Positions 13,687 to 30,629 of a stretch of DNA of 64,000 bases are shown here, piece by piece. The stretch comes from an uncultured Granulosicoccaceae bacterium. GTDB taxonomy: Bacteria > Pseudomonadota > Gammaproteobacteria > Granulosicoccales > Granulosicoccaceae. Below the pieces are notes generated by a model. That model was given only the letters and a program-made list of their open reading frames with translations, was not told where the DNA came from and searched no databases. Both the position numbers and the translations under genes were made by a program. The stretch lies in assembly GCA_937998875.1 (NCBI GenBank), contig CALLBO010000026.1:1-64000 (forward strand). The letters run 5' to 3'. Every line of letters begins with the position of its first letter. The first letter of the stretch is position 1.

Positions 13687-14139
13687 CTAGTCCTTTGATC
13701 TCAGCGGTTGATTCTCCCGACAGTACCTGGCCGGTGTTATGCCTTCAATCCTGATGAAGTGCTTGTAGAACACAGACTGGCTATTGAATCCCACGGTGTT
13801 TAGAACATCGACTATTTTCATGTCGCTGCTCATGAACAAGTGTTTAGCCTGTTCAATCCTGATTTCATTAATAAAGTCGTTAAAATTGGAACCACTCACT
13901 CTGTTAATTAGTGACGATAACTCCCTCACCGGTACACCTAATTTACGGGCAAGGTGTTGGATTTTGAGATTTGAATTTAGCGTCCATTCATTTGTTCTTA
14001 TTTTGTCACGGTATTTCTTCAGCCTTCTTTTATCTCCGGCATTGACTGGTAAACACTCTTTACGCTCGCTACATACGGGCGCCAACCAGGGGTGATTGAC
14101 ACTGTGCTCATAGGAAATAACTATTTTCTTTATTTGCAT
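13687..14139 (-). CDS. Short AraC-type DNA-binding protein
   Basis: A 150-residue protein consisting essentially of one AraC/XylS double helix-turn-helix domain (about residues 45-143). LARKLGVPVRELSSLINRVSG is the first recognition region, and the C-terminal signature VLNTVGFNSQSVFYKHFIRIEGITPARYCR is intact. The usual N-terminal ligand-binding domain is missing; about 40 unassigned residues precede the HTH. GAGG lies five bases before the ATG. The upstream region carries a perfect GTCAAC-N4-GTTGAC repeat that recurs before the exported protein at 43311. It could be autoregulatory or a regulator of that gene, which is inference. Confidence 0.8.
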   Translation of the reverse strand: MQIKKIVISYEHSVNHPWLAPVCSERKECLPVNAGDKRRLKKYRDKIRTNEWTLNSNLKIQHLARKLGVPVRELSSLINRVSGSNFNDFINEIRIEQAKHLFMSSDMKIVDVLNTVGFNSQSVFYKHFIRIEGITPARYCRENQPLRSKD

Positions 14140-14242
14140 GGTAGCCTCAGACTCTCAAAGCCCGGTTCGTATAAACGCTGTTACAACGTGTCATCGAACT
14201 TACCGTGTCTTGCTACAGCACTTGCCAATTGAGATAGGTTTT

Positions 14243-14258
14243 GTCAACTGGTGTTGAC
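14243..14258 (-). promoter_or_regulatory. Palindromic site upstream of the AraC-type gene, overlapping a -35-like hexamer
   Basis: GTCAAC-TGGT-GTTGAC, a perfect 6-4-6 inverted repeat about 105 bases before the start codon. In the gene's direction it reads GGTCAACACCAGTTGACAAAA, ending in a consensus TTGACA. The same module, with similar flanks and a matching GAGGCTAC-N-ATG translation start, precedes the gene starting at 43311. Confidence 0.55.
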
Positions 14259-14334
14259 CGGAGATTTAAGGACAGATACTTTTGGATGAGAAGGCAATTC
14301 ATCGAGTATCCATTGCAGCGGAGATAAAGCTGGA

Positions 14335-14619
14335 TCAATTAGGAATAGTTTCGGCTTTTTTCTCGTTTGTTACTTTTTCTGACCGTGTGTTGTCATCCAG
14401 TTCGTTTCTTGAGCATTCACCTGGTACATTTCCTGATCTCGCTTCTTGCGCCTGTTGGCGTTGCTCACGTTGTAGTAAATCAATTTCCCGCTGACCGGGC
14501 AAGGGCAGCATACACCCCAAGGCAGCAATTAGTCTGGTTTTAAACAAAATCACATTGCTGTAGATTGGCTTCGTGAATTGTAGAGTTATCTCAATAAACG
14601 TCTTACGGTGTTCATTCAT
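14335..14619 (-). CDS. Small hypothetical protein
   Basis: A 94-residue frame supported mainly by AGGAG ten bases before its ATG. The middle has a short hydrophobic stretch (TRLIAALGCMLPLPG, about 28-42), followed by a Gln/Glu/Arg-rich helical segment and a charged tail. No family is recognised. It starts upstream of, and on the same strand as, the AraC-type gene, with about 195 bases between them. It may be a real small gene or a chance frame. Confidence 0.4.
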   Translation of the reverse strand: MNEHRKTFIEITLQFTKPIYSNVILFKTRLIAALGCMLPLPGQREIDLLQREQRQQAQEARSGNVPGECSRNELDDNTRSEKVTNEKKAETIPN

Positions 14620-14850
14620 TACGCAGTCGCTCCTGTGATTTGAATTCCGCGGTTTTGGACTACATCGGATTTGCTACCCCAATTGATAAGCGTATGATGT
14701 ATTCACACTAAACAGCGATCGATATAATCAAGGCTATGCAGATCTTTGATCTAAATCTTCCGGAATCAGGTTTCAGGAATATTTTTTAGTCACCCAATTC
14801 CAATACCAGGGTTTCTGCACACAGACTGTTCGCACTATTGACGTTTCGTT

Positions 14851-15309
14851 TTGGAAGGTGGAACCGAGTCTGAATTTACCCGACGAGTAGCACACAATCT
14901 TGAAGCTCTTATCGTTAATGAGGGACCGGATACGATAGCCGGTATACTTGCAGAACGTGTGCAGGACGCTGGTGTTGTAATACCCTCGTCTGCTGGCTAT
15001 TTTGAAGCTATACGTCCTATCTTAAGACAGTACGATAGACCTCTGATGGCGGACGAAGTGATGTGTGGTTTTGATCGCACCGGTTTTATGTGGGGCAGTG
15101 TGAAATTCAACCTGCAACCAGATGCTATTGTTGCCTTCAAGTTCATTACAGCAGGCTACTTTCCAGGGGCTGCAATCATCCTCGATTAAGATTTCAACGA
15201 TGAGTTGCGCTGGGTATCAGAGGCTGCTGAAGAGTTTCCTCATAGGTTTACAACAGGTGGTAATTTGTTAGGCAGTGCCTTCGCTCCCAAATTAATCGAA
15301 ATTCTGTAA
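14851..15309 (+). pseudogene. Remnant of a class III (PLP) aminotransferase
   Basis: The frame from 14851 translates to the middle of a class III aminotransferase: NLEALIVNEGPDTIAGILAE, then AGYFEAIRPILRQYDRPLMADEV (PLP-contacting Asp) and AFKFITAGYFPGAA, where the Lys matches the PLP lysine position. About 190 N-terminal residues are absent. A TAA at 15187-15189 interrupts the frame, which then continues as recognisable sequence (HRFTTGGNLLGSAFAPKLIEIL) to a second stop at 15307-15309. Beyond that the similarity fades. The MarR-regulated cluster follows directly. Confidence 0.8.
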
Positions 15310-15537
15310 AGCTTGTCGGCATGATGTGAGAACAGCGCTTTGGGCGCGGTCCATTTGTATTTTTGGGGCTTGAAAGACTCGAACTAAATTGAACGTCGCT
15401 TTATTAGAGCGCAGCAGATTGCGACTCTATTGCTTGATTGTTTACCGGGAACCAAATGCAAGAGAAGTTGTCGCGCAGGTGGTGTAGCCAATGGAAGTGT
15501 ACTGATGCATTTGCTTGGTTATGTCCGACGCTTTATA

Positions 15538-15552
15538 GTTATATAGTATAGC
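15538..15552 (+). promoter_or_regulatory. Candidate MarR operator, copy 1
   Basis: GTTATATAGTATAGC, an inverted repeat of six-base arms around TAG with one arm mismatch, ends 30 bases before the SDR start. An almost identical site (perfect arms) lies at 21662-21676, and 18 of 20 aligned bases agree over the extended GTTATATAGTATA...ATTA block. MarR proteins bind palindromes of this size, and a marR gene is second in this operon. Confidence 0.65.
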
Positions 15553-15582
15553 AATTAACTAACGTAGAACAGAGGAGCAGAC

Positions 15583-16347
15583 ATGGTTATTGACGGTGTA
15601 ACAGCGGTCGTCACCGGTGGCGGAAGTGGTCTGGGGGCAGCAACAGCGCGGCACCTGGCCAGTTGTGGGGCGAAGGTAGCTGTGCTCGATCTGAATCGGG
15701 AGCATGCAGCGGCAGTTGCTGATGAAATCGGTGGTGTTGCCGTGGTTGCCGATGTGTCGGACGAGAGCGCCGTTAGTGAGGCATTGAAGAACGCGACCGT
15801 GTCACTCGGTGACGCACCCAGGGTTGTTGTCAATTGTGCAGGGATAGGTCTGGCCGCTCGTGTCGTCGGTCGTGAAGGTAAACTATCGATAGATGTGTTT
15901 GAAAAGACGATACGTATAAATTTGATCGGCACATACAATGTGATGAGCCATGCCGCAAACCTGATGACATCTCTGGATCCACATGATAATGGTGAGCGCG
16001 GTGTCATTATTAACACTGCCTCTGTCGCGTGGCAGGATGGCCAGATTGGTCAGTCAGCTTACTCTGCATCCAAAGGTGGTATAGCTGCAATGACACTTCC
16101 GGTTGCCAGAGAGTTTGCAAGAGCCGGAATCCGGGTGATGGCAATCGCACCCGGGTTGTTTAACACTCCTATGATGGAAGGTCTGCCTGAAGAGGTAACT
16201 GCAAAAATAGCCGCGGAAGTACCGTTCCCACAGCGCCTTGGTGAACCACATGAATATGGGCTATTGGTGGCCCAGATAGTTGAAAACCCTTACCTGAATG
16301 GCACAAACATTCGTATAGACGGGGCAGTTCGGTTAGCGCCGAAATAA
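15583..16347 (+). CDS. Short-chain dehydrogenase, 3-hydroxyacyl-CoA dehydrogenase type
   Basis: A 254-residue classical SDR resembling human HSD17B10-type 3-hydroxyacyl-CoA dehydrogenases. It has the TGGGSGLG cofactor loop at 11-18, Ser147 in NTASV, Tyr160 and Lys164 in the YSASK motif, and the C-terminal RIDGAVRLAPK typical of that subgroup. AGAGGAG lies just before the ATG. It is first in the SDR-marR-ligase operon. In this context it would oxidise a 3-hydroxy-3-aryl-propanoyl-CoA to the beta-keto thioester, the step before the amidohydrolase; that role is inferred from neighbours. Confidence 0.85.
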   Translation: MVIDGVTAVVTGGGSGLGAATARHLASCGAKVAVLDLNREHAAAVADEIGGVAVVADVSDESAVSEALKNATVSLGDAPRVVVNCAGIGLAARVVGREGKLSIDVFEKTIRINLIGTYNVMSHAANLMTSLDPHDNGERGVIINTASVAWQDGQIGQSAYSASKGGIAAMTLPVAREFARAGIRVMAIAPGLFNTPMMEGLPEEVTAKIAAEVPFPQRLGEPHEYGLLVAQIVENPYLNGTNIRIDGAVRLAPK

Positions 16348-16355
16348 GATACCGC

Positions 16356-16865
16356 ATGCCACCAACGAAAAAAGCTGATCCGTTTGCACAGCAACAACGA
16401 TTAGACAGTTACGAGCACCCTGCAGCCGCAGACGCTGGACTACGGCGCTTCCTGGGTTATCGGCTTAAACGTGCATACAATACCTTGCGATCAGGCATGC
16501 TTGTGCGGCTGGAGCCACTCGGGCTTCGAATTACTACTTTTTCTGCGCTGTTGTTAATTGTTCATAACCCGGGGCTTCGCCAGTCGGCACTTGCATCTGC
16601 ACTGGATATTAAAACGTCCAACATGGTGGCTATTGTTGATGATCTGGAAGCAAAAGGGTGGATAAAGCGAAAACCAGAACCAACAGATCGTAGAGCACTA
16701 GCCTTGATCGCTACAACGGCCGGTAAAAGTACCTGTAAAAAGGCTGAAGCACTTGCGTTTGAAAATGAAGAAACCCTGCTAAACAACCTTAGTGACGCCG
16801 AACTCAACACTCTCTCTGCGCTTCTGGAAAAAATAGAATCGTCTGCGGAAATATCTCATGGCTAA
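16356..16865 (+). CDS. MarR-family transcriptional regulator
   Basis: A 169-residue winged-helix regulator. The core SALASALDIKTSNMVAIVDDLEAKGWIKRKPEPTDRRALALIATTAG covers the recognition helix and wing, including the family DRR signature. It is eight bases downstream of the SDR and overlaps the acyl-CoA ligase start by eight bases. MarR regulators of hydroxycinnamate genes (CouR, FerC, HcaR) are released by the CoA thioester made by the adjacent ligase; the same logic fits here. The two GTTATATAGTATAAC-type sites are its likely operators. Confidence 0.9.
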   Translation: MPPTKKADPFAQQQRLDSYEHPAAADAGLRRFLGYRLKRAYNTLRSGMLVRLEPLGLRITTFSALLLIVHNPGLRQSALASALDIKTSNMVAIVDDLEAKGWIKRKPEPTDRRALALIATTAGKSTCKKAEALAFENEETLLNNLSDAELNTLSALLEKIESSAEISHG

Positions 16866-18663
16866 AAACAACTACGTGAAGCATCGGGTTGAATCCGCAA
16901 CGCAAGACGACGGTACGTTACTACTGCAGTCAGAAATTCCATTGGGTCCGGTTGCCAGAAACACCGGTGAATGGTTGCATCGCTGGGCGCTGGAAGTACC
17001 TCAGCGAGTCTTTTTGATGGAACGTTCTGGTGTTGGCTGGCGAGAGATTAGCTATAGCGAGACGCTGCAACAGGTGCAAGCGCTGGCAGCATCGCTTCTG
17101 GCTCAAGGGATGGGACCGGATACGCCCGCTGTTGTGCTTTCGGGACCCGGAATTGACCACGGCATACTGATGTTGGCAACTCAGTATATCGGAATGCCAC
17201 TGGTACCGTTGGCAGAGCAGTACTCTCTGATCCCGGAGGCCGCCAACCGACTGGACTATTGTATTAACAAGGTTAAGCCGGCTTTAGTGTATGCATCAGA
17301 CGGACAAAAATTTGCCAACGGTTTAAACAGAGAATCGTTAGCGTCTGTGACCAGATTAGTGAGTTCTAATGTGCCCGACGGAGCACTGAGTTTCGAAGAT
17401 TTGTTACAGGGTAAACCTGGCCGGGAACTGGACGATGCGCATTCCCGTATCGGGCCGGATGCGTTGGCAAAAATACTATTTACCTCAGGCTCTACCGGCA
17501 ACCCCAAAGGCGTCCCGCAATCACAGGAGATGCTAACCGTCAATCAGGCGCAATATCTGAGTTGCTTACCGATGTTTGCGGCACGGCCACCTGTCGTAGT
17601 CGACTGGCTGCCATGGAGTCATGTATTTGCAGGCAACTCGAGTTTTAATCTTGTGTTGTCTAATGGTGGAACATTGATTCTGGATGATGGAAAGCCCGTG
17701 AAGGGGCTGTTTGACCGTACCCTTGAAAATCTGAGAATGCATGTAGGTACACTTAGCTTCAATGTGCCGGTTGCCTATACACTGTTAGTGGATGCTCTTG
17801 CTAAAGACAAGAAGCTCAAAAACCGATTTTTTGCAGATCTCGACTTAATTTTTTACGCCGGCGCGTCTTTACCCGCAGATATTTGGTCCGCGCTTGAGAA
17901 AATGGCAACAGAGGTTACTGGCAAAATTCCGATGATGACCTCAAGCTGGGGCCTTACAGAAACCGCCCCCGCCTGTTTAATACACCATCAGGGTGGGGCG
18001 ACCTCAGGAATGATAGGAGTACCGGCCCCCGCAATTCAAACCAAGTTGATTCCGTATAGTGAAGATCGGTACGAGATACGGGTAAAAGGTCCAAACGTCA
18101 TCACATCTTACTTCGATGCACCGGACGTTGACGCAAAGTCATTTGATGATGAAGGGTATCTAATCACCAACGATGCAGTAAAGTTTGTAGATAAAAGTGA
18201 TCCTGCTGCCGGAGTCCGGTTTGACGGGCGTATTACAGAAGATTTCAAGCTGCTTACCGGCACGAAAGTGCAGGCGGCAGATATCAGGCTGCGGACTTTG
18301 GCCGTTCTGGAAGAGCTGGTTCAGGATGTTGTTGTTACCGGTGCCGATCGCAACGACATTGGTTTGCTGATATTTCCTTCGCCGGCCATTGCACCGGCAA
18401 ACGACGGTGAAATCGTCACTGATAAAGATTACATAGAACAGGTACTAGAACGATTGAAAGGGGTTACCAACCCGGCGGGTGGCTCGTCTACCAGAGTTTC
18501 AAGGATCTTGTTAATGGCACAGATACCATCGATCAAAGATGCTGAAATTACCGCGAAGGGCAGTTTGAATATCGCTGCCATTTTAACCTGCAGGAAACGC
18601 CTGCTTGAGCGACTTTATGATGATTCCGATGAGGCTTCTTTAACTGTCGGCGGTGGGGCTTGA
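16858..18663 (+). CDS. Feruloyl-CoA-synthase-type acyl-CoA ligase
   Basis: An adenylate-forming ligase of 601 residues that would activate a hydroxylated phenylpropanoid with ATP and CoA. The P-loop TSGSTGNPKG is at 209-218, and the A5 motif SSWGLTETAP near 357. The FDGRITEDFKLLTGTKVQ block is characteristic of feruloyl-CoA synthases rather than of fatty acyl-CoA ligases. The EITAKGSLN segment carries the C-terminal catalytic lysine. It is translationally coupled to marR. The exact substrate (ferulate, m- or p-coumarate, hydroxyphenylpropionate) is not readable; the MobA neighbour favours a 3-hydroxylated compound. Confidence 0.88.
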   Translation: MAKNNYVKHRVESATQDDGTLLLQSEIPLGPVARNTGEWLHRWALEVPQRVFLMERSGVGWREISYSETLQQVQALAASLLAQGMGPDTPAVVLSGPGIDHGILMLATQYIGMPLVPLAEQYSLIPEAANRLDYCINKVKPALVYASDGQKFANGLNRESLASVTRLVSSNVPDGALSFEDLLQGKPGRELDDAHSRIGPDALAKILFTSGSTGNPKGVPQSQEMLTVNQAQYLSCLPMFAARPPVVVDWLPWSHVFAGNSSFNLVLSNGGTLILDDGKPVKGLFDRTLENLRMHVGTLSFNVPVAYTLLVDALAKDKKLKNRFFADLDLIFYAGASLPADIWSALEKMATEVTGKIPMMTSSWGLTETAPACLIHHQGGATSGMIGVPAPAIQTKLIPYSEDRYEIRVKGPNVITSYFDAPDVDAKSFDDEGYLITNDAVKFVDKSDPAAGVRFDGRITEDFKLLTGTKVQAADIRLRTLAVLEELVQDVVVTGADRNDIGLLIFPSPAIAPANDGEIVTDKDYIEQVLERLKGVTNPAGGSSTRVSRILLMAQIPSIKDAEITAKGSLNIAAILTCRKRLLERLYDDSDEASLTVGGGA

Positions 18664-18800
18664 TACCAACAAGAACGCCGGTGTCTTGCAGAATCTTTCC
18701 TACTACCGCAAAGTGCCGGCCCATGGCTGACCTCCTATTTGTCTCCGGTATTCCCGCTTGTCGTAAACCATTGTCGTAAACAATTGGCGTAAAAAATTGG

Positions 18801-20702
18801 TTAGGCAATCATGATCGCTTTGAAGAAATCAGCCAACCCGTCGTAATCACCGACAGGCAGCACGGCGGCTATGTATTGATCCGGCCTTACAATAATTAGC
18901 GCACCACTGTTTCTATCGATTCCACGAGTGTCGTAGATATCTGCTGATTGTTTGGCGCAGAAAATCTTCTCGTAATCGATCAGGCCCAATGCCCCTTTTG
19001 GAGGAACCAGCAGAGAAGGCATTGCCTCAATAGCTAACACACGGTGACCGGCTTGAAATACTGCACGAACATCGAAAACGCTATCAATGTCTGCGTCGCT
19101 TGAGGTGTATTTCACTATGGGGCTATTGCTATTGGTTGCTAGAAAACCGCATAGATTTGCGATTGGTTTATCGGCTTGCCCATTGTCACCTGCAGCGGCA
19201 AAAACAATCAGCCGCCAGCGTCCGTCCGCTTTTATAGTGTGTCCGAGCTGTAGGGGCCTGGCGTCACTCAAGCGTATCACCATTTCAGAATGAAACCGCA
19301 TACCCACCTGTAAGCCAGTAGCCAGCTGCTGGTGTTTAGCAGGCTGTGTGATATCAGACGCACTGTATCGTGTTTCTACACCCGCTGTGTATCGAGCATG
19401 TTTTCTGAAATATTGCTGAAAGAGAAGGGCGGTGTCTTCATCTGTGGGCTTGTCGCTAAACAACCTGGCCATGTCTTTGTCAAAGTTGATCAGTTCAAGC
19501 GCTTTGGCTTGCCTTTCCTGCGAGTAGCTGTGCAGTAAGGCAGGGTTGGCCTGGCCCCTAATAACCGCCGCGAGTTTCCAGCCCAGGTTAAAGGCGTCAG
19601 CCATACCAACATTCATGCCCTGACCGGCCTTGGGGCTGTGGGTATGACATGCATCACCGGCAATAAAAGTATCGGGTAGTTGATTATCCCGCTTTTCATT
19701 GGGCACGTTATCAAATACATCGCATACGCGCTGACCTATTTCATAGGCAGACCACCAGACGAGTTGCCTGACGTCTAACGTGTAGGGTGAAAGGATATCG
19801 CGAGCTTTGTCGGCTAAAAACGTTGGGGTTACGTCAATATCGCTGGCTCTTTCATCGCCTTGAAGCTCACGTAGTTCGATATACATACGAACGAGGTATC
19901 CGCCTTCACGAGGGATGATTAACAGGCTTCCATGTTCAGCAGACTGGATAGCGGCCTTCTTTCGAATATCGGGGAAATCGGTTACCGCAAGAATGTCCAT
20001 AACACCCCATAGCTGCCTTGCAGACTCACCTTTTAGTTGCTGCCCGATAGCCTGCCTGACGATACTACGCGCACTATCGCAACCCACTACATACTTTGCG
20101 TTAATGGTTTCTTTTTTATTAGATTCATCAACACAGTTAAGCGTTGCAATTAGCGGGTAGTCACCTGTTTCTGTACGGGATAGCTTTACGAGTTCACGAT
20201 TGTAGTCAGGGACTAACCGGTGTGAACTGTTGACCATTTTCTCAAGGTAAAAGTCATGGACTCTCGCCTGACTGAGTATAACGTGCGGCATTTCGGACAA
20301 GCCATCCTCTACATCTTGAATAACATCAGCACGTTGCAGGCGGGAGTCGTCTAAATCAGCACTGACTGACCCTGTACTGTTGATCGATGGTCGCCAGAAC
20401 GCTACTTCGTTTACATAGTATGCTTCCTTGAGTACCTTCTCTGCGAAACCAAAAGCTTCAAACATCTCAACAGACCGGCAGGCAATGCCATCGGCCTGGC
20501 CCATCTCAAGCCGGCCGGGTTTACGCTCTACAATACGCGTGCGAATATCCGGAAACTCACTGAGCTGGGCCGCGAGCGTTAACCCTGCGGGCCCACAGCC
20601 GATGATAAGCACATCGACACAGTCTGACGTTTCATTTGATGCCGGTGCGCGCTCAATGACAGATGGGTCACCTGCGCGAAAACCATGTAGATGATACTGC
20701 AT
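18801..20702 (-). CDS. mobA: 3-hydroxybenzoate 4-monooxygenase (MobA type)
   Basis: An FAD/NADPH aromatic hydroxylase of 633 residues, the same size as Comamonas MobA. I recognise extended MobA-like blocks: the N-terminus MQYHLHGFRAGDPS, the FAD loop IIGCGPAGLTLAAQL (33-47), MGQADGIACRSVEMFEAFGF, the FAD-ribityl motif FIAGDACHTHSPKAGQG and the thioredoxin-like C-terminal domain ending in GIDRNSGALIIVRPDQYIAAVLP. The reaction is 3-hydroxybenzoate to protocatechuate. It is second in the minus-strand operon behind the crotonase. A related phenol-type hydroxylase specificity cannot be excluded. Confidence 0.88.
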   Translation of the reverse strand: MQYHLHGFRAGDPSVIERAPASNETSDCVDVLIIGCGPAGLTLAAQLSEFPDIRTRIVERKPGRLEMGQADGIACRSVEMFEAFGFAEKVLKEAYYVNEVAFWRPSINSTGSVSADLDDSRLQRADVIQDVEDGLSEMPHVILSQARVHDFYLEKMVNSSHRLVPDYNRELVKLSRTETGDYPLIATLNCVDESNKKETINAKYVVGCDSARSIVRQAIGQQLKGESARQLWGVMDILAVTDFPDIRKKAAIQSAEHGSLLIIPREGGYLVRMYIELRELQGDERASDIDVTPTFLADKARDILSPYTLDVRQLVWWSAYEIGQRVCDVFDNVPNEKRDNQLPDTFIAGDACHTHSPKAGQGMNVGMADAFNLGWKLAAVIRGQANPALLHSYSQERQAKALELINFDKDMARLFSDKPTDEDTALLFQQYFRKHARYTAGVETRYSASDITQPAKHQQLATGLQVGMRFHSEMVIRLSDARPLQLGHTIKADGRWRLIVFAAAGDNGQADKPIANLCGFLATNSNSPIVKYTSSDADIDSVFDVRAVFQAGHRVLAIEAMPSLLVPPKGALGLIDYEKIFCAKQSADIYDTRGIDRNSGALIIVRPDQYIAAVLPVGDYDGLADFFKAIMIA

Positions 20703-20794
20703 TAGTGTCTATCCTTTGCAGTTTCCAACTGCAGGCAGCATAAAGCTGCAACTCTGTTTGTCACTCGTTTAAATCGAGTTTCAAAAACTTAAGG

Positions 20795-21577
20795 TCAGTT
20801 GAACTTAGGTGGACGCTTTTCTAAAAAAGCACGCAAGCCTTCTTTTGCGCCGTCAGTGGTTTGCGACATAGAAGCGGCAAGACTCTCAGTAAATAGTCCG
20901 TCACTGCGAGACATGTCATTGATACGTGGCAGGGCCTGAATCATTAAGTAGTTGGAGAATGGCGCGTTGTCAGCGATTTTTCTGGCAAGTTTGTGTGCTA
21001 ACGGTAAAGCTTCATCCTCACCTACTGCGTAGTGTGCAAGGCCGAGATCAACTCCGTCTTCGGACCCGTAGCTTCGACCGGTGAGCATCATTTCCCGCAT
21101 CCGGTCTGCACCGAGAATACGACCCATTCGCACTGTCGCGCCACCGCCGACAAATATACCGCGACGACCCTCTGGCAACTGGAAACGCACTGAAGGCTCG
21201 GCTATTCGAACGTGGGTAGAAGCGGCAATTTCAAGGCCGCCACCGATTACCGCACCGGTAAGTGCAGAAATGACTGGTAAACCACCGAACTCAATTACCT
21301 CGGATACCCGGTGCCAGTTACGTGAGTGGTAGACACCTTCCACAGGCTCTCTTTGTTCATGCTCTTCAAGGTCGAGCCCGGCACAGAAATGCCCGCCGCT
21401 GCCAGTGAGGATAACGGCCTTGGCTTCTTTAGGAGGTTTTGAAAAAAACCGATCCAGCTCATCGATCAGCGCATCGTTCATTGCGTTGCGTTTTTCCGGC
21501 CGGTTAATCGTGACGGTGACTATGTCGGCATCTGTCTCCACTAGAATCATCTTATAAGGCTGACTACTATCTGACAT
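20795..21577 (-). CDS. Enoyl-CoA hydratase/isomerase (crotonase) family protein
   Basis: A 260-residue crotonase fold. The oxyanion-hole segments are GGHFCAGLDLEEH (near 65-77) and AVIGGGLEIAASTHVRIAE (near 108-126); PEGRRGIFVGGGATVRM supplies the second half of the active site. In this locus it is the likely hydratase converting a cinnamoyl-type CoA to the 3-hydroxy-3-aryl-propanoyl-CoA. A retro-aldol hydroxycinnamoyl-CoA lyase role is also possible, but the SDR and amidohydrolase favour the beta-oxidative version. It is first gene of the minus-strand operon, whose promoter region contains operator copy 2. Confidence 0.85.
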   Translation of the reverse strand: MSDSSQPYKMILVETDADIVTVTINRPEKRNAMNDALIDELDRFFSKPPKEAKAVILTGSGGHFCAGLDLEEHEQREPVEGVYHSRNWHRVSEVIEFGGLPVISALTGAVIGGGLEIAASTHVRIAEPSVRFQLPEGRRGIFVGGGATVRMGRILGADRMREMMLTGRSYGSEDGVDLGLAHYAVGEDEALPLAHKLARKIADNAPFSNYLMIQALPRINDMSRSDGLFTESLAASMSQTTDGAKEGLRAFLEKRPPKFN

Positions 21578-21661
21578 GGCGTGTCTCTCAATGACGGTAC
21601 TGGGTATGGCGGAATCCGGAGGTTCCAGGCAGGTACTTTAACGATGGCGCTGAAATTATTT

Positions 21662-21676
21662 GTTATATAGTATAAC
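21662..21676. promoter_or_regulatory. Candidate MarR operator, copy 2, in a divergent promoter region
   Basis: GTTATA-TAG-TATAAC, a perfect inverted repeat, lies between the divergent crotonase-mobA operon (start 21577) and the amidohydrolase operon (start 21728). It almost duplicates the site before the SDR-marR-ligase operon. One site here could control both divergent operons. Confidence 0.7.
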
Positions 21677-21727
21677 GATTACTGTGTCTGACAAAATCCA
21701 GATTGAAACTTAAGGAACAGCACCGGA

Positions 21728-22615
21728 ATGGTAGATTTCGCGAAAGTCAAAGCAATCGATTTCCACACCCATGCGGAAGAGCCGTGCAATGAGTGTCGCG
21801 ACGACGGCTACAACGAATTTCAGACCGGTATGGCGGCTTATTTTAAAAACCCCGCTGGCGCTGAAGGAATGTTGCCAACAGTGCAGGACACGGCAGCTTA
21901 TTACCGTGAACGCAATATAGCGGCCGTGATATTCCCGGTAGATGCCGAACGGGAAACCGGGTTTAAACGTTATTCAAACGAAGAAGTAGCAAGCCTTTGC
22001 GCAGAAAACGATGACATCTTAATACCGTTTGCGTCTATTGACCCACACAAAGGCAAAGCGGGGGCTCGCGAAGTCAAAAGGCTGGTAAGAGACTTTGGCG
22101 TTAAGGGCTTTAAGTTCCATCCAACCATGCAAGGCTTTTTTCCGAACGACAGGGAAGCCTGTTACACGGTGCTTGAAGCCTGCGCTGAAGAAGGGGTAAT
22201 CACCCTTTTTCACACCGGGCAAACCGGCGTTGGTTCCGGTATGCGCGGTGGCATGGGTATGCGACTCAAGTATTCCAACCCGATGCATCTGGATGATGTC
22301 GCTGTTGATTTCCCTGACATGCCAATTATCCTGGCGCACCCGTCATTTCCGTGGACTGAAGAAGGACTGGCGGTAGCGCAGCATAAGCCGAACGTGTACT
22401 ACGATATGTCTGGCTGGTCGCCTAAGTATTTTCCGGAAACCTTTATACGCTACGCAAACTCTATTCTAAAAAAGAAGATGCTGTTTGGATCAGACTGGCC
22501 GGCGATTACCCCTGACCGCTGGCTTGCAGACTTTGAGAACGCACCGTTCAAAGATGAAGTAAGACCATTAATTCTTAAAGAAAACGCACTTCGATTGTTG
22601 AATCCAAACGATTGA
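21728..22615 (+). CDS. Amidohydrolase-family protein, likely aryl beta-ketoacyl-CoA hydrolase
   Basis: A 295-residue amidohydrolase-2 (ACMSD-type) TIM barrel. The metal pair is His13/His15 in DFHTHAEEP; later ligand segments are GFKFHPTMQGF, TLFHTGQTG, ILAHPSFPW and the aspartate of LFGSDWPAI. ACMSD relatives are decarboxylases, but the closest functional precedent for this gene set is the CouO-type hydrolase of p-coumarate catabolism, which splits an aryl beta-ketoacyl-CoA to hydroxybenzoate. That role fits the SDR, crotonase and ligase nearby and is inferred. It is first in the plus-strand operon. Confidence 0.8.
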   Translation: MVDFAKVKAIDFHTHAEEPCNECRDDGYNEFQTGMAAYFKNPAGAEGMLPTVQDTAAYYRERNIAAVIFPVDAERETGFKRYSNEEVASLCAENDDILIPFASIDPHKGKAGAREVKRLVRDFGVKGFKFHPTMQGFFPNDREACYTVLEACAEEGVITLFHTGQTGVGSGMRGGMGMRLKYSNPMHLDDVAVDFPDMPIILAHPSFPWTEEGLAVAQHKPNVYYDMSGWSPKYFPETFIRYANSILKKKMLFGSDWPAITPDRWLADFENAPFKDEVRPLILKENALRLLNPND

Positions 22616-22669
22616 GCGTTGGGTGCAATCGATTTTTAAGCGTAACCAGCCCGGCAAGATACGGACACT

Positions 22670-24202
22670 ATGACCCCATTCAAAGCACCACTTGAGGATA
22701 TTCTGTTTTCCCTGCGCTTGGTTGCACAAGCCGATGAAGAGTGGGATGAGACAACAGCTACAGACATATTGGGTCACTTTAGCGCTTTTGCCGAGAATGC
22801 TCTGGCACCACTTAACGCCACGGGTGATCGGGAAGGCGCGCAGCTGATTGATGGCAGGGTGCAAATGCCCAAAGGCTTTAAAGAAGCCTACAAGCAGCTG
22901 ATAGAAGATGGCTGGCAAGGGTTAAGTGCACCGGAAGAGTTTGGTGGCGCTGGCGTTTCCAGGCTTATTGCTGCCGGTGTATCGGAAATCTTTTCCGGTG
23001 CTAATCACGCCATGCAAATGGTCTGCAATCTGGTACCCGGGGCAATCACAACCCTGCGTCTGTTTGGCACGGCAGAACAACAAGCCCGCTGGATTCCGAA
23101 ACTCGCTTCCGGTGAATGTTTATCGACCATGTGTTTAACCGAACCTGCAGCAGGTTCTGATCTCTCTGCGATCAAGTGTCGGGCAGAGCAGGCAGGTGAA
23201 AGTTGGGTTATTAACGGTGAGAAAATATTTATATCAGGCGGAGATCAGAATTTATCAAAAGATATCCTGCACCTCGTGCTGGCTCGCTCAGGCGGGCCGG
23301 GTATAAAAGGGCTGTCACTTTTTCTTTGTCCGGCTCAACCGGAAGTCACTATCACGCGAATTGAAAGTAAGCTCGGCTTGCATGCATCTCCTACCTGCCA
23401 AATGCTGTTTAGTGATGCCGGGGCAGAGTTAGTAGGTGAAGAGGGGGCAGGGCTGCTGGCTATGTTCAAGTTAATGAATCATGCACGTATAGATGTAGCG
23501 CTTCAGGGTGTCGCCCATGCATCTAATGCCGCTTATCAATCTTATCACTATGCGTGCGATCGCAAGCAGGGCCGAGGCCCTGACGGTCAAACTGCACGCT
23601 TGAGTGATCATGCAGATGTGCAGCGCATGCTGGATGAACAGAAGATACTGGCAATAGGCGCGCGAGCCATGTGCCATATCGCTCTTAAAGAATCAATGAA
23701 AGGTCAAAGGCCAGCTCTTGTCGAGATACTGACCTCACTGTGTAAAGTGACTGGCTCAGAAGCAGGTATTCGAGCCGCTGATCTCGGTATTCAGATTATG
23801 GGAGGATATGGATACCTTACCGAGTACGGCGTGGACCAGATTTGGCGCGATGCTAGAATTACAGCAATCTATGAAGGTGCGAATGGTATTCATGAGCGCA
23901 CTATCGTGACCAGAGGCTTGCAATCCGGCACTGGCGCGGAAGATTTCGCTGACCTGATGAATGAGCTGGCAGATGGTGATTCAATAATTAAAGAGGGTAC
24001 CGACCGCTGGTTAGGTGTAGTGCAGCAGTTAAGGTCTGCAAAAGACCCCACTTCACAGGCGCATAATTTTTGTAATCTTACACGGGAGCTTTTTCAGCAA
24101 GCTACCTGGGTGCGGATTGCCGCGGTTGCAGATCATCATCCAGACACTGACGAGTTAAAACGTTTTTGCAAAAGCGTTTTAACTCCTGATAAGTTGTCTT
24201 GA
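22670..24202 (+). CDS. Acyl-CoA dehydrogenase
   Basis: An FAD enzyme of 510 residues. The fold signatures are CLTEPAAGSDLSAIKCRA (near 155-172) and IQIMGGYGYLTEYGVDQIWRDARITAIYEGANGIHERT, with the catalytic glutamate in the YEGANGI segment. It belongs to the long FadE/DmdC-like branch, though it is shorter than the usual 580-600 residues at the C-terminus. In the cluster it could desaturate an aryl-propanoyl-CoA to the cinnamoyl-CoA, letting saturated phenylpropionates enter. It is 54 bases downstream of the amidohydrolase. Confidence 0.88.
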   Translation: MTPFKAPLEDILFSLRLVAQADEEWDETTATDILGHFSAFAENALAPLNATGDREGAQLIDGRVQMPKGFKEAYKQLIEDGWQGLSAPEEFGGAGVSRLIAAGVSEIFSGANHAMQMVCNLVPGAITTLRLFGTAEQQARWIPKLASGECLSTMCLTEPAAGSDLSAIKCRAEQAGESWVINGEKIFISGGDQNLSKDILHLVLARSGGPGIKGLSLFLCPAQPEVTITRIESKLGLHASPTCQMLFSDAGAELVGEEGAGLLAMFKLMNHARIDVALQGVAHASNAAYQSYHYACDRKQGRGPDGQTARLSDHADVQRMLDEQKILAIGARAMCHIALKESMKGQRPALVEILTSLCKVTGSEAGIRAADLGIQIMGGYGYLTEYGVDQIWRDARITAIYEGANGIHERTIVTRGLQSGTGAEDFADLMNELADGDSIIKEGTDRWLGVVQQLRSAKDPTSQAHNFCNLTRELFQQATWVRIAAVADHHPDTDELKRFCKSVLTPDKLS

Positions 24203-24264
24203 TTAACGCGGCTGGTAGAAAGCGATGCCTGACACAACTAAAAATTGTTCTTTACCGCTGATCT

Positions 24265-24645
24265 GTGCAAAAACTGAAGACAGACATACCGCGAATTGTT
24301 GTAGCTGCGCGTGACTACCTCGTATTGGCTGTTGCCGGTGGTGTTGTTGAGGAAGCAGGAACTTTTTCACAGGTGCTTAGAAATTTTCATACCGTTTGGC
24401 TAAAAGCGAAGCCATCCAAACACATGGAGCGGGTGCGCGCACAAGGTGATCTGCGCCCGATGGCCGGAAACCCCCAAGCCATGGAACAATTACGCAAAAT
24501 ACTAGTGGCTAGAGAGTCCAGCTACTGTCAGGCAGAATACCATCTGGATACCAGTGACAAAAAGATAGATATATCATTGATCGAACTGTGCGAATTAATT
24601 CGTTCGCTCGGAATTCTTTTGGACAGTAACACGATATCAAAATGA
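24265..24645 (+). pseudogene. Orphan C-terminal half of a BoxR/BzdR-type regulator (shikimate-kinase-like domain)
   Basis: The 126-residue frame (GTG start) matches the end of BoxR/BzdR regulators, which fuse an XRE helix-turn-helix to a shikimate-kinase-like domain that binds benzoyl-CoA. Visible blocks are AVAGGVVEEAGTFSQVLRNFHTVWLKAKPSKHM, VRAQGDLRPMAG and MEQLRKILVARESSYCQAEYHLDTS. The DNA-binding domain and the Walker-A P-loop are missing, and the preceding 60 bases do not encode them. It is either a decayed regulator or a retained stand-alone domain. It sits between the acyl-CoA dehydrogenase and the FadB-like gene. Confidence 0.75.
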
Positions 24646-24670
24646 CAGTAACAACAATCAGAGCTTTGTT

Positions 24671-26728
24671 ATGAGCGTAACCACACGTCGTGAAGGCAGT
24701 GTTGGCTATGTAGAGATCGACAATGCGCCTGTAAACGCCATTGGTCTATCGGTGCGTAGTGGTTTACAACAGGCAGTGGATTGGGCCGAACGTGAAAACC
24801 TTGAACGCGTCATAGTTAGTGGTAAAGGTGGTATGTTTGCCGCCGGTGCGGATGCCAAAGAGTTTGACAGTGCACCGGTCGAACCACATCTGCCGGATGT
24901 ACTTAATGCTATCGAGGATAGTTACGTCCCATGGATAGCGGCTATTGAAGGTGTGGCGCTTGGTGGCGGTGCGGAAATAGCGCTGGCGTGTCCTATGCGG
25001 ATTATGGCCCCAAAGGCCCGTATTGGATTTCCTGAAGTCACTCTTGGTGTTATCCCTGGTGCGGGTGGCACGCAACGACTACCGCGCCTGATTGGTCTTT
25101 CCAATGCGCTGAATGCAGTCACTGGTGGAAAACCACTGAATGCGCAGACAGCTTTAAAGATGGGGTTAGTACAAGCTGTGAAAAGCGAGCCTGTCGAGGC
25201 GGCCTTTATGGTCAATAGCGAAGCGCTCGTTACTATTGTGCCGGTATCCGAGCTGCCGGAACCCGCTATCGATCTGGAAGTTCTAAACACTGCACGCAAG
25301 ACCGTAAACACGAAACAAGCTGGCCAGATTGCACCACTTCGGGCCATAGAAGTTATGGAGGCGGGTTTGAGTTTACCGTTTCGGGAGGGGCTGGCATTAG
25401 AGCGTCAGGCATTCCTGGAGTTACGAAGTTCAGATCAGGCTAAGGCCCTGCGACATATCTTTTTTGCTGAGCGCGCTGCCAAAACACCCTCCAACATCAT
25501 CGCAGAGCCAGTGGTACCAGAACATATAGCGGTAGTGGGTGGCGGCACAATGGGTTCGGGTATTGCCTATGCGGTACTGAACGCGGGCTTTCGAGTCACC
25601 GTTTTAGAAACCGATAGTGAAGGCGTTAAACGTGCCCGTGAGAATGTAGAGAAGGTAGTAGAGGCAAGCCTTAAGCGTGGGCTAATTGATGAGAACAAAG
25701 CTAACGAGCGCCGTGCGCTTTTTTCAGCGAGCACAAACTACGCAGATGTTTCTGATGCAACACTTGCCATTGAAGCCGCGTTTGAAAGCATGGCGGTAAA
25801 GTGCCAGGTATTTGCAGCATTGGAGCAATCGCTTCCTGCCGGAGCGATTATCGCAAGCAACACGTCCTATCTTGATATAAACGAGATAGCTGATTCTTTA
25901 TCAGATCCTGCAAGAGTTATAGGACTTCATTTTTTTGCTCCTGCTCACATCATGAAACTGCTGGAAATAGTACGCGGAAATAAAACATCGGATATTGCGA
26001 TTACAACGGCTTTTGCATTGGCAAAACGGCTTCGCAAGGTGCCGGTCGTAGTCGGTGTCTGCGACGGGTTTGTCGGTAACCGGATACTTGCCCGTTATCG
26101 CGAAGCAGCAGATACTTTATTAATAGATGGCTCAACCCCGTGGGAGATCGATGAAGCAATGGTTGAATTCGGCTACGCCATGGGCCCATACGCTGCGCAA
26201 GACCTGTCGGGACTCGACATAGCTCATGCAAATCGACGCAGACAGGATGCAACACGTGACCCGGCACGTCGCTATATACCAATCGCTGACCGTATGGTTG
26301 AGTTAGGCAAATTAGGTCGGAAAACAGGCGCAGGGTGGTATCGTTACCCGGGTGGTAACGGCAGAGTGGAAGATCCTGTCGTTGCGGATCTTGGTATTGA
26401 AGAGGCGCACTTCGCCGGTATAGAACGAGTCGAGTACTCAGCAGATGAGATCCGTGAGCGCTTGACGCTGGCTATGATAAACGAAGCTTCAGATATTCTC
26501 CACGAGGGGATAGCGCAAAGCGCTGCTGATATTGATCTCGTTACTGTCTTTGGCTACGGGTTTCCCCGATGGCGTGGTGGTTTGATGCACTATGCTGACA
26601 CACTGGGTGCTAAAGAAATTGTCTCGAGGCTTACGAGGTTAGGAAATGAAGATGCCATAGCCTGGAAGATAAGCCCGTTGTTATCGCACTGCTCAGAAAA
26701 TGGAATTCCTTTGTGCGACGTCGGCTAA
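24671..26728 (+). CDS. FadB/FadJ-like enoyl-CoA hydratase / 3-hydroxyacyl-CoA dehydrogenase
   Basis: A bifunctional beta-oxidation protein of 685 residues. The N-terminal crotonase domain (about 1-190) shows GGMFAAGADAKEF and GVALGGGAEIALACPMRI. A linker leads to the NAD-binding motif VVGGGTMGSGIAYAV (near 290), and the dehydrogenase carries the catalytic HFFAPAHIMKLLEIV and GVCDGFVGNRI segments. It duplicates activities of the separate crotonase and SDR, so it may handle a different chain or complete beta-oxidation. It starts 25 bases after the BoxR-like remnant. Confidence 0.92.
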   Translation: MSVTTRREGSVGYVEIDNAPVNAIGLSVRSGLQQAVDWAERENLERVIVSGKGGMFAAGADAKEFDSAPVEPHLPDVLNAIEDSYVPWIAAIEGVALGGGAEIALACPMRIMAPKARIGFPEVTLGVIPGAGGTQRLPRLIGLSNALNAVTGGKPLNAQTALKMGLVQAVKSEPVEAAFMVNSEALVTIVPVSELPEPAIDLEVLNTARKTVNTKQAGQIAPLRAIEVMEAGLSLPFREGLALERQAFLELRSSDQAKALRHIFFAERAAKTPSNIIAEPVVPEHIAVVGGGTMGSGIAYAVLNAGFRVTVLETDSEGVKRARENVEKVVEASLKRGLIDENKANERRALFSASTNYADVSDATLAIEAAFESMAVKCQVFAALEQSLPAGAIIASNTSYLDINEIADSLSDPARVIGLHFFAPAHIMKLLEIVRGNKTSDIAITTAFALAKRLRKVPVVVGVCDGFVGNRILARYREAADTLLIDGSTPWEIDEAMVEFGYAMGPYAAQDLSGLDIAHANRRRQDATRDPARRYIPIADRMVELGKLGRKTGAGWYRYPGGNGRVEDPVVADLGIEEAHFAGIERVEYSADEIRERLTLAMINEASDILHEGIAQSAADIDLVTVFGYGFPRWRGGLMHYADTLGAKEIVSRLTRLGNEDAIAWKISPLLSHCSENGIPLCDVG

Positions 26729-27031: not shown

Positions 27032-28642
27032 ATGGGATTCTCTGGAATTACCAGAATAAAGCGAGCTAAAGGTTTGCTGAGAGCATCTGTGTTGGCCATT
27101 GCGGCAACTGCGATGATGCAAGCGCCGATGGCACAGGCCGAAGACAGCGTTTTAACAGTCAACATGCATTCGGATTTGAAAATTGTTGATCCAATCTGGA
27201 CCACAGCATACATGTCTCGTAACTACGGTTACATGGTGTATGACACTCTGTTTGCAATGAATACCAAAGGCGAAGTATTGCCGCAAATGGTCGATACTTT
27301 CAAGATCGCAGATGACGGCTTAACCTATGATTTCACTTTGCGGGAAGGCTTGAAGTTTCACGACGATGCACCTGTTACCAGTGAAGATGTCATTGCATCA
27401 CTGCAGCGCTGGGGGCAGAAAGATGCAATGGGTCAAAAGATGTTGACCTTCGTGGCTGAAATGACAGCTACCGGCGACAATTCATTCCAGTTTAAAATGA
27501 ACGAGCCAACCGGCATGGTTATCCAGGCGCTCGGTAAACCCTCTTCTAATGTGCCGTTCATCATGCCGGCAAGAATCGCCGCCACCCCACCAGGTGATCA
27601 AATAACTGAATACATCGGAAGCGGTCCATTTGTATTCCTGGAAGATGAATGGAAGCCTGGTGATAAAGCAGAATTTGCAAAGTTCGAAGGCTACGTTCCG
27701 CGTTCGGAACCTGCCGACGGTCTGGCGGGTGGTAAGGAAGTATTTGTCGACAAAGTCGTATGGAAAGTCATCCGCGATCAACAAACCAAGATGAATGCGT
27801 TATCAAAAGGTGAGCTGGATGTTATTGAGCAGCCTGCGCACGACTTACTGCCACTCATGGAGCAAGACGAGAATATCAAACTGATCGATCTGAACCCGTT
27901 CGGCAGTCAGTACACGTTCCGGTTTAATGTTCTCCATCCTCCGTTTGACAACCCCAAAATTCGTCAGGCATTAATGTATGCATTCGATCAGGAAGAGTTT
28001 CTGTTCGCAGCTGTAGGAGATGAGGCATATTTCAAAACCTGTAAGGCGATGTTTATTTGCGGTACTCCAATTGCCACCGAAAAGGGTTTTGAAGACATGC
28101 TTTCCGGCAATATCGAGAAAGCGAAAGAGATGATCAAAGAGGCAGGCTACGACGGTACGCCGGTATTGCTCATGCATCCAACTGACCTAACTATTCTTGA
28201 GCCGCTTCCACCTGTAGCGAAAGCAATCATGGAAGATATCGGCTTGGTAGTAGATATGCAGGCAATGGATTGGCAAACATTGGTCGGACGCCGAAACAAG
28301 CAGGAACCTGTGGCCGAGGGTGGTTGGAATGCCTTTATCACTGCCTGGAATTCCGTTGATAATGCAAGCCCGCTTACTACGCCGTTTTTAAACGCTGGTT
28401 GCGACAAGGCTTTGTTTGGTTGGCCGTGCGATGAGCAGATTCAGTCTCTACGTGATGAGTTCTCACGCGAACCTGATCCTGCCAAGCAACTCGCCATCGT
28501 TGAGAAGCTGCAAATGCGTGTTGCTGAGTATCCAACGCACATTCACCTGGGTCAGTATTTACAGCCTCACGCAATGGGAAAAAATATTTCCGGGGCACCG
28601 GTGTCTCCAGTACCTGCTTTCTGGGGATACAAGAAAGACTAG
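27032..28642 (+). CDS. Peptide/dipeptide-type ABC transporter substrate-binding protein (family 5)
   Basis: A periplasmic solute receptor of 536 residues. The signal peptide is basic (RIKRAKGLLRAS), then hydrophobic, with cleavage likely after AQA near residue 36. The mature protein has the SBP_bac_5 order: a DPIWTTAYMSRNYGYMVYDTL start, then YDFTLREGLKFHDDAPVTSEDVIASLQRW and the later NNPKIRQALMYAFD-type segment. Family members bind di- and oligopeptides, glutathione, opines or nickel chelates. It is first of a complete four-gene transporter operon. Confidence 0.92.
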   Translation: MGFSGITRIKRAKGLLRASVLAIAATAMMQAPMAQAEDSVLTVNMHSDLKIVDPIWTTAYMSRNYGYMVYDTLFAMNTKGEVLPQMVDTFKIADDGLTYDFTLREGLKFHDDAPVTSEDVIASLQRWGQKDAMGQKMLTFVAEMTATGDNSFQFKMNEPTGMVIQALGKPSSNVPFIMPARIAATPPGDQITEYIGSGPFVFLEDEWKPGDKAEFAKFEGYVPRSEPADGLAGGKEVFVDKVVWKVIRDQQTKMNALSKGELDVIEQPAHDLLPLMEQDENIKLIDLNPFGSQYTFRFNVLHPPFDNPKIRQALMYAFDQEEFLFAAVGDEAYFKTCKAMFICGTPIATEKGFEDMLSGNIEKAKEMIKEAGYDGTPVLLMHPTDLTILEPLPPVAKAIMEDIGLVVDMQAMDWQTLVGRRNKQEPVAEGGWNAFITAWNSVDNASPLTTPFLNAGCDKALFGWPCDEQIQSLRDEFSREPDPAKQLAIVEKLQMRVAEYPTHIHLGQYLQPHAMGKNISGAPVSPVPAFWGYKKD

Positions 28643-28655
28643 TAAATCTGTTGCC

Positions 28656-28681
28656 GGCTGCATCCGATAGTGGATGCAGCC
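28656..28681 (+). terminator. Hairpin between the binding-protein and permease genes
   Basis: GGCTGCATCC (28656-28665), loop GATAGT, GGATGCAGCC (28672-28681): a perfect ten-base-pair stem 14 bases after the binding-protein stop. It lacks a T tract, so it more likely blocks 3' exonuclease or attenuates, giving more binding protein than permease. Confidence 0.65.
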
Positions 28682-28754
28682 AGCGTGTTTACCTATCACA
28701 GGCTGCATTCTACATTTTGGCAATCGATAACAAAGGCAATACTAACGACTAGCT

Positions 28755-29696: not shown

Positions 29697-29697
29697 T

Positions 29698-30627: not shown

Positions 30628-30629
30628 CG

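Follow-up and report, generated by a model that had tools for sequence, protein, structure and literature searches.

The side-chain chemistry by which hydroxycinnamates undergo coenzyme A (CoA)-dependent beta-oxidative deacetylation is already known from the atu1415-1422, cou and phd gene clusters. In Agrobacterium fabrum SpG8-1b, the hydroxycinnamate region atu1415-atu1422 includes Atu1416, Atu1417, Atu1415 and Atu1421 as well as the MarR repressor HcaR (PMC7797058), while in Rhodococcus GD02 the last hpe gene, hpeF, follows hpeCBA, hpeD and hpeE, and its product, 95% identical to CouO, was assigned as a hydroxyphenyl-beta-ketopropionyl-CoA hydrolase (PMC9618137). In Rhodococcus jostii, the boxes of CouR coincide in part with the -35 boxes, and CouR is set free by p-coumaroyl-CoA (PMC4737184); PhdR is likewise released by CoA-activated phenylpropanoids (PMC7593625). 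Here we describe a seven-gene set of related content, which also contains a homologue of the 3-hydroxybenzoate 4-hydroxylase MobA, in a 64,000 nt stretch (the window) of contig CALLBO010000026.1 from an uncultured Granulosicoccaceae bacterium, the assembly of which comprises 5.2 Mb in 121 contigs; that the host lives in the sea would be speculation.

We propose, with a probability of roughly 0.6, that these genes form one transferable cassette of three gene groups, in which the side chain is shortened before MobA acts on the ring, and for which at least one natural substrate is meta-hydroxylated. The groups, consisting of a short-chain dehydrogenase/reductase (SDR), marR and ligase, of crotonase and mobA, and of amidohydrolase and acyl-CoA dehydrogenase (ACAD), would be read from two promoter regions sharing a MarR operator. 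The ligase would convert a hydroxyphenylpropanoid acid into its CoA ester, to be desaturated by the ACAD where the side chain is saturated; the crotonase would hydrate the enoyl-CoA ester, the SDR would oxidise the product to the beta-keto ester, and the amidohydrolase would release the free hydroxybenzoate and acetyl-CoA. 3-Hydroxybenzoate would then be hydroxylated by MobA to protocatechuate, which would feed the 4,5-cleavage enzymes encoded at another place in the genome, with the MarR protein repressing the set until an aryl-CoA ester appears. The gene families, predicted operators, block conservation, MobA contact residues and genes of the protocatechuate sink are read directly from the sequence; we infer which reactions the enzymes catalyse, how far the operons extend, what induces them, and that at least one natural substrate (3-hydroxyphenylpropionate or m-coumarate) bears the meta-hydroxyl group.

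A conserved seven-gene block and its borders

Pfam and NCBIfam searches recovered every gene type named in the initial annotation (ligase, crotonase, SDR, amidohydrolase, ACAD, MobA and MarR), with a gene span of 15583-24202 (Table 1). The plus strand carries SDR, MarR and ligase and, further on, amidohydrolase and ACAD, and between these two groups lie MobA and crotonase on the minus strand. A search for synteny in other genomes, which that annotation had suggested as a check, showed the whole set in G213, a genome from another family of the same class. Here blastn aligned 8.65 kb collinearly with positions 15508-24163 at 81% DNA identity, and in this block (locus L175) neither the order nor the orientation of the seven genes differs from the window, and both predicted operators are present. 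No further match was found between the window and 18 kb of G213 at E≤1e-5. Protein identity between the two genomes was 92% for the SDR, 90% for MarR, 89% for the ligase, 81% for MobA, 97% for the crotonase, 99.7% for the amidohydrolase and 83% for the ACAD. From the collinear G213 block, which ends at the ACAD, we place the conserved unit at about 15508-24202, with the left border lying 30 nt upstream of the first operator.

The initial annotation had extended the cluster to position 26728, which is approximately 2.5 kb too far, as this range also takes in a boxR remnant and a FadJ-like gene, neither of which it named. The remnant, at 24265-24645, is the last third of boxR, matching PRK08154 from position 202 of 314; it lacks the N-terminal helix-turn-helix (HTH) and the P-loop part, and its shikimate-kinase-like domain is incomplete. 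In genome G012, boxR is intact and directly followed by a homologue 77% identical to the FadJ-like protein of the window, and similarity to that locus begins at 24322 at the DNA level and at approximately 24266 at the protein level. The FadJ-like gene is missing from the G213 block, which stops at the ACAD; given the intact boxR-fadJ pair in G012, this gene belongs to an older boxR neighbourhood and not to the cassette. The simplest history would be that the cassette arrived and the front of boxR was lost. The FadJ-like gene, the boxR remnant and a downstream ABC transporter were also considered as members of the unit, and were rejected on the borders of the G213 block and the boxR-fadJ pair of G012.

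Transferability is suggested by the different family of G213, its unrelated flanks and rarity (7 of 274 genomes of the class at E≤1e-60, the host included). Four-fold degenerate sites of the G213 block show 51-59% agreement, which indicates a block closer than the alphaproteobacterial loci, yet not a recent arrival. For a wider comparison we used loci from at least 550 relatives of the amidohydrolase; the named loci are the best 80 of these at least 550 and not a random sample, with L041 representing G011 and L035 its contig C156. The amidohydrolase of the window is 94-97% identical to those of L029, L030, L041, L043, L045, L046, L049 and L055, with four-fold degenerate sites agreeing at 27-38%, and is far more conserved than most of its neighbours in these eight loci of Gamma- and Alphaproteobacteria (crotonase 77-91%, SDR 55-82%, MobA 54-64%, ligase 35-75% with two ligases not computed, and ACAD 41-74%, the lowest value being the partial L049 gene). 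It is 70-89% identical in L033, L085, L086, L106 and L119, and in L033 hardly exceeds the crotonase and SDR. A recent amidohydrolase transfer between Rhodobacteraceae and the host, considered because of the 94-96% protein identity, was not supported, since agreement at four-fold degenerate sites does not exceed 27-33% in the five alphaproteobacterial loci L043, L045, L046, L049 and L055; strong purifying selection would account for the identity.

Table 1. Coordinates of the cassette genes, predicted operators and right-hand neighbours in the window
Feature	Position	Strand	Basis or remark
Predicted MarR operator 1, GTTATATAGTATAGC	15538-15552		30 nt upstream of SDR start
SDR, probable 3-hydroxyacyl-CoA dehydrogenase, 254 aa	15583-16347	+	Pfam adh_short 3.9e-42; TGGGSGLG and YSASK motifs
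MarR-type regulator, 169 aa	16356-16865	+	Pfam MarR_2 5.5e-14; nearest solved structure CouR 6c28
Feruloyl-CoA-synthase-type aryl-CoA ligase, 601 aa	16858-18663	+	AMP-binding 2.6e-45; PRK12582 584 bits (below cut-off)
MobA, 3-hydroxybenzoate 4-hydroxylase homologue, 633 aa	18801-20702	-	2dkh 752 bits; 56% identity
Crotonase, probable aryl-enoyl-CoA hydratase, 260 aa	20795-21577	-	ECH_1 2.7e-43; PRK08150 above cut-off
Predicted MarR operator 2, GTTATATAGTATAAC	21662-21676		Crotonase/amidohydrolase divergent promoter, 51 nt upstream of amidohydrolase
Amidohydrolase-2 protein, proposed aryl-beta-ketopropionyl-CoA hydrolase, 295 aa	21728-22615	+	Amidohydro_2 1.7e-47; TIM-barrel model; gene context
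ACAD, 510 aa, proposed for saturated side chains	22670-24202	+	Three Acyl-CoA_dh domains; closes conserved block
boxR 3' remnant, outside unit, right border	24265-24645	+	PRK08154 positions 202-305 of 314 only
FadJ-like hydratase/3-hydroxyacyl-CoA dehydrogenase, 685 aa, outside unit	24671-26728	+	Homologue behind intact boxR in G012

Left of the cassette, positions 13687-15189 carry pieces of an AraC-type HTH gene (13687-14139) and a class III aminotransferase gene (14851-15189), and such gene fragments suggest decayed DNA. Near the right border, the last ACAD codons contain a 17-nt inverted repeat with arms not separated by a gap (24152-24185). Downstream of the FadJ-like gene, positions 27032-32267 encode a peptide-type ABC transporter (binding protein, permease and fused ATPase), and similar genes recur at approximately 77.7-83 kb of the same contig, with permease and ATPase 35-47% identical.

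Predicted MarR operators and the enzymes of the proposed route

The two promoter regions share the palindrome GTTATA-N3-TATARC, at positions 15538 and 21662, and these are the only mismatch-free copies of GTTATATAGTATARC in the 5.2 Mb assembly. With up to two mismatches, 8 sites were found in the assembly versus 9 for a reversed-pattern control, and GTTATANNNTATARC with two mismatches gave 8 sites in the window versus 6.8 expected, which leaves the exact sites as the only informative ones. In resamplings that preserve dinucleotide frequencies on average only, the observed score was reached in 1 of 1000 at 15538 and in 0 of 1000 at 21662. All 12 arm bases are kept at the crotonase/amidohydrolase promoter in L029, L041 and L175, with 11 kept in L030 and 10 in L035, while L033, which has a different gene order, has a 12/12 site before its SDR/ligase pair. 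The SDR promoter of L175 has kept the arms with the spacer changed from TAG to ACA, as expected for a dimer-bound site, and that of L030 has 10/12 arm bases (31 of 1000 resamplings). Scanning 200 nt gave no site (7/12) at the amidohydrolase promoters of L030 and L033 and the SDR promoter of L041; the 11/12 site of L030 sits more than 200 nt away, near the crotonase, and was caught by a 250-nt window. The named loci, which are mostly alphaproteobacterial, provided 77 amidohydrolase promoters for the same test (200 resamplings each); p≤0.05 was reached in 36, 17 of which reached p≤0.01, but not in 41, with scores of 9-11 of 12, and 8 in L114; as the loci are related, this is only suggestive of a wider presence of the operator.

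The solved structures nearest to the MarR protein were those of CouR (6c28, E 1.3e-15; 5cyv, E 1.5e-10), and its match to the Saro_0803 NCBIfam family was below the cut-off (69.5 versus 200 bits). The cluster contains a MarR gene and inverted repeats at the promoters it would control, as in systems of the CouR/HcaR/PhdR type, and the ligase-hydratase-dehydrogenase-amidohydrolase set of the initial annotation is supported, with one MarR gene and two matching predicted operators. Since CouR and PhdR are released by CoA esters, the inducer is by analogy expected to be an aryl-CoA ester.

Genes of the ligase, hydratase, dehydrogenase and proposed beta-keto-ester hydrolase families are clustered here, as would be needed for beta-oxidative deacetylation. 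The crotonase scored 337 bits on PRK08150 (cut-off 232). The SDR shows the glycine and YxxxK motifs, and the crotonase two glutamates as in hydratases. The ACAD would extend the pathway to acids with a saturated side chain. The assembly encodes no second ligase of this type, the next best match being 28% identical.

The amidohydrolase matched no NCBIfam family, and the proposal that it is CouO-like draws on its family, its fold and two types of gene neighbourhood. Residues D11, H13, H15, H162, H204 and D256 were invariant in 21 sequences. The structural model (predicted local distance difference test, pLDDT, 82) has a TIM-barrel amidohydrolase fold, its best match being the uncharacterised 3irs, followed by dihydroxybenzoate and 5-carboxyvanillate decarboxylases and a probable pyrone-dicarboxylate hydrolase; the model thus indicates the fold, and gives no decision on the reaction. 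The first context is a plasmid of Rhizobium sp. Q54, where a 76% identical protein is annotated as 4-hydroxyphenyl-beta-ketoacyl-CoA hydrolase and the neighbours as acyl-CoA dehydrogenase, 3-hydroxy-2-methylbutyryl-CoA dehydrogenase, feruloyl-CoA synthase (the ligase being 37% identical), enoyl-CoA hydratase and MarR regulator. The second is a P. putida plasmid, where a 60% identical amidohydrolase follows genes for acetoacetate-CoA ligase, biotin carboxylase and a HAD hydrolase; this context is much like the hpe cluster and by analogy points to the same hydrolase reaction.

MobA scored 925 bits on PRK08294 ('phenol 2-monooxygenase', cut-off 560) and matched the Comamonas testosteroni enzyme 2dkh over residues 1-631 of 633 with 752 bits, the Phe_hydrox_dim dimerisation domain included, and with 56% identity over 621 aligned positions. 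In 2dkh, Asp75 and Tyr271 contact the substrate, Leu258 and Ile260 are stacking residues, and His135 and Lys247 are carboxylate anchors, added relative to phenol hydroxylase (PMC3546652). All six are kept in the window, and the identity given to MobA in the initial annotation thus holds down to the substrate-contacting residues. Among 14 proteins aligned besides 2dkh, the window included, 11 span the six positions and keep all of them; the L030 and L035 proteins stop after His135 and keep the two residues covered, and fragment L132 keeps the four covered. The step from 3-hydroxybenzoate to protocatechuate by MobA is therefore a well-founded prediction from sequence. A sink for protocatechuate exists in the genome, where the alpha and beta subunits of protocatechuate 4,5-dioxygenase, the LigK aldolase and 4-oxalomesaconate tautomerase are encoded in one run (G000:C41).

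Occurrence of MobA in related clusters and competing readings

In the same genus, the amidohydrolase was found at E<1e-60 in 7 of 14 genomes, and MobA lies in or beside the cluster in the host, in G005, in G006 (where a contig end cuts the cluster) and in G011, both on contig C115 and next to a broken cluster copy on C156. This second copy of the window-type arrangement (L035:16384-17818) retains a 39-residue amidohydrolase piece, a crotonase that is matched piecewise and a MobA that extends almost to where the contig stops. Of the neighbourhoods in four further genomes of the class, that of G213 contains MobA within the block, and none was found in those of G084, G131 and G247. Full-length MobA was present in seven of the best 80 loci (L041, L046, L062, L083, L086, L087 and L092), with short pieces in L058 and L093. 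Its position varies, as it is located between ligase and crotonase (window and G213), after the ACAD (G005 and G006), between amidohydrolase and ACAD (L041), between ligase and TRAP permease (L046 and L062), divergent from the amidohydrolase (L083), or 2-5 kb downstream of it (L086, L087 and L092). The recurrence of MobA at differing places in one cluster type, in both Gamma- and Alphaproteobacteria, argues for a functional pairing.

Counts per locus were taken from the tblastn table for those 61 loci that span 18 kb or more, the other 19 of the 80 being shorter. The ligase was present in 46, crotonase in 57, SDR in 40, MarR in 42, ACAD in 28 and TRAP permease in 37 of the 61, with PobA in 13, a P450 in 16 and a second flavin hydroxylase in 18. 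Ligase, crotonase, amidohydrolase and SDR occur together in 34 loci, and together with MarR and ACAD in 17. MobA and PobA were never found together (0/61), and we discarded the idea that they are exclusive alternatives, because with 6 and 13 carriers this result says little. The ligase subtype was also ruled out as a marker for MobA, as L033 and L046 pair MobA with the 35-37% identical ligase type. In many related clusters, a P450 gene directly follows the amidohydrolase and a PRK07538-type flavin hydroxylase follows the ACAD (L046:9751-10938, L043:13588-14853).

Several findings weigh against the cassette as proposed. MobA was found in only 6 of the 61 loci, most clusters being without it; it is not on the 6.8-kb contig of G008, where the crotonase directly follows the ligase, not within 20 kb of the cluster in G013 and not in the downstream 9.5 kb of G001, where the amidohydrolase is cut (sitting on another contig in both genomes), and not in the stretch covered of the G084 and G131 clusters. 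The ligase remained below the PRK12582 'acyl-CoA synthetase' cut-off of 777 bits, and its nearest solved relatives are malonyl-CoA synthetases (65 bits). The fold matches of the amidohydrolase are mainly decarboxylases and uncharacterised proteins rather than beta-keto-ester hydrolases. Finally, PobA scores above its cut-off at G000:C47 of the same genome, which leaves room for para substrates; with a single ligase of this type, the same enzymes may also serve p-coumarate or ferulate, and such compounds could pass through the cassette and exit via PobA.

Taken further, the same observations would describe a general hydroxycinnamate cluster for p-coumarate, ferulate and caffeate, with 4-hydroxybenzoate passing to PobA elsewhere and MobA being a passenger that salvages 3-hydroxybenzoate of other origin. 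The characterised relatives, as far as described in the papers cited, act on para-hydroxylated acids, and PobA is nearby in 13 of the 61 loci; however, MobA shares the operator-bearing divergent promoter with the crotonase, and is kept in the G213 block and at several positions in related clusters, and we consider this general reading unlikely, although to be taken seriously. Improbable, in our view, is a different ring pattern with a 3-hydroxyl group, such as isoferulate converted to isovanillate, or the hydroxylation of the intact phenylpropanoid by MobA before shortening: the P450 and additional flavin hydroxylase genes of related loci make substituted rings likely there, but a P450 did not turn up in the conserved block, and the carboxylate anchors of MobA are kept as expected for a benzoate and not for a longer acid. 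Even less credit is due to a larger functional unit that would add the FadJ-like gene and possibly also the ABC transporter of the peptide type. The strand is the same and the gaps to the ACAD are short, and FadJ-type genes occur close to the amidohydrolase in L098, L100, L109 and L110 (4 of the 61 loci); however, the G213 block stops at the ACAD, the closest relative of the FadJ-like gene stands behind an intact boxR in G012, the boxR tail of the window is truncated, and the assembly-wide scan gave no exact operator copy in this region.

For the cassette as proposed, with shortening followed by MobA, a meta-hydroxylated substrate such as 3-hydroxyphenylpropionate or m-coumarate is plausible. 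A bolder version, which we offer tentatively and would not bet on at even odds, is that of a dedicated, horizontally moving cassette for meta-phenylpropanoids which treats the side chain first, as a plug-in module with an unusually conserved amidohydrolase and with exchangeable ligases and ring enzymes (MobA, PobA, or P450 plus flavin hydroxylase) that reveal the phenol consumed. The Mhp route hydroxylates the ring first. If the meta reading is true, 3-hydroxyphenylpropionate and m-coumarate would have a side-chain-first route, and a simple genomic rule would follow by which the hydroxylation pattern of a substrate could be read from the ring hydroxylase encoded in its cluster. This would aid annotation of a cluster type frequent in Rhodobacteraceae, the group to which most of the best 80 of at least 550 amidohydrolase relatives belong, and the cassette provides a directly testable prediction of MarR operator and inducer.

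Comparison with described systems

The A. fabrum region resembles the cassette in its feruloyl-CoA synthase, enoyl-CoA hydratase, phenylhydroxypropionyl-CoA dehydrogenase and beta-keto-ester-cleaving Atu1421, and in the control of both transcription units of the first part of the pathway by the MarR protein HcaR, whereas it differs at the aromatic-acid step, which is catalysed by the O-demethylase Atu1420 acting on vanillate, with a GntR regulator and no MobA in the portion available; that portion also names no ACAD, and Atu1421, termed a beta-keto-thiolase, is likened to our amidohydrolase by description (PMC7797058). The cou system of R. jostii RHA1 shares the beta-oxidative deacetylation closed by an amidohydrolase, CouO, and a MarR repressor, CouR, with inverted-repeat boxes at several promoters, but its box is cATTGA-N5-TCAATg compared with GTTATA-N3-TATAAC in the window, its substrates are p-hydroxycinnamates, and MobA is not mentioned in the accessible text (PMC4737184). 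In Corynebacterium glutamicum, the phd genes encode a ligase, hydratase, 3-hydroxyacyl-CoA dehydrogenase and 3-oxoacyl-CoA ketohydrolase (PhdA, PhdE, PhdB and PhdC; PMC5479773) and a MarR-type PhdR released by CoA esters (PMC7593625), again with no mention of MobA in what is available of either paper, and with the likeness drawn by description. Conversely, the available account of the Comamonas testosteroni MobA 2dkh mentions no side-chain cluster beside it (PMC3546652). The alphaproteobacterial loci L043, L045, L046, L049 and L055 share ligase, crotonase, SDR, ACAD (partial in L049) and a 94-96% identical amidohydrolase, but have a TRAP transporter, DUF3237 and often a P450 and another flavin hydroxylase, with ligases only 35-39% identical and MobA in L046 only.

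Among the titles and abstracts listed in searches of an open-access library, none joined MobA with a side-chain-shortening cluster. The initial annotation had considered the gene combination as a whole to be unfamiliar; the side-chain part is known from A. fabrum, C. glutamicum and Rhodococcus, while the pairing of this route with the 'meta'-phenol enzyme MobA is new, as is the occurrence of the whole set in a single block of a distantly related genome, and both points are testable.

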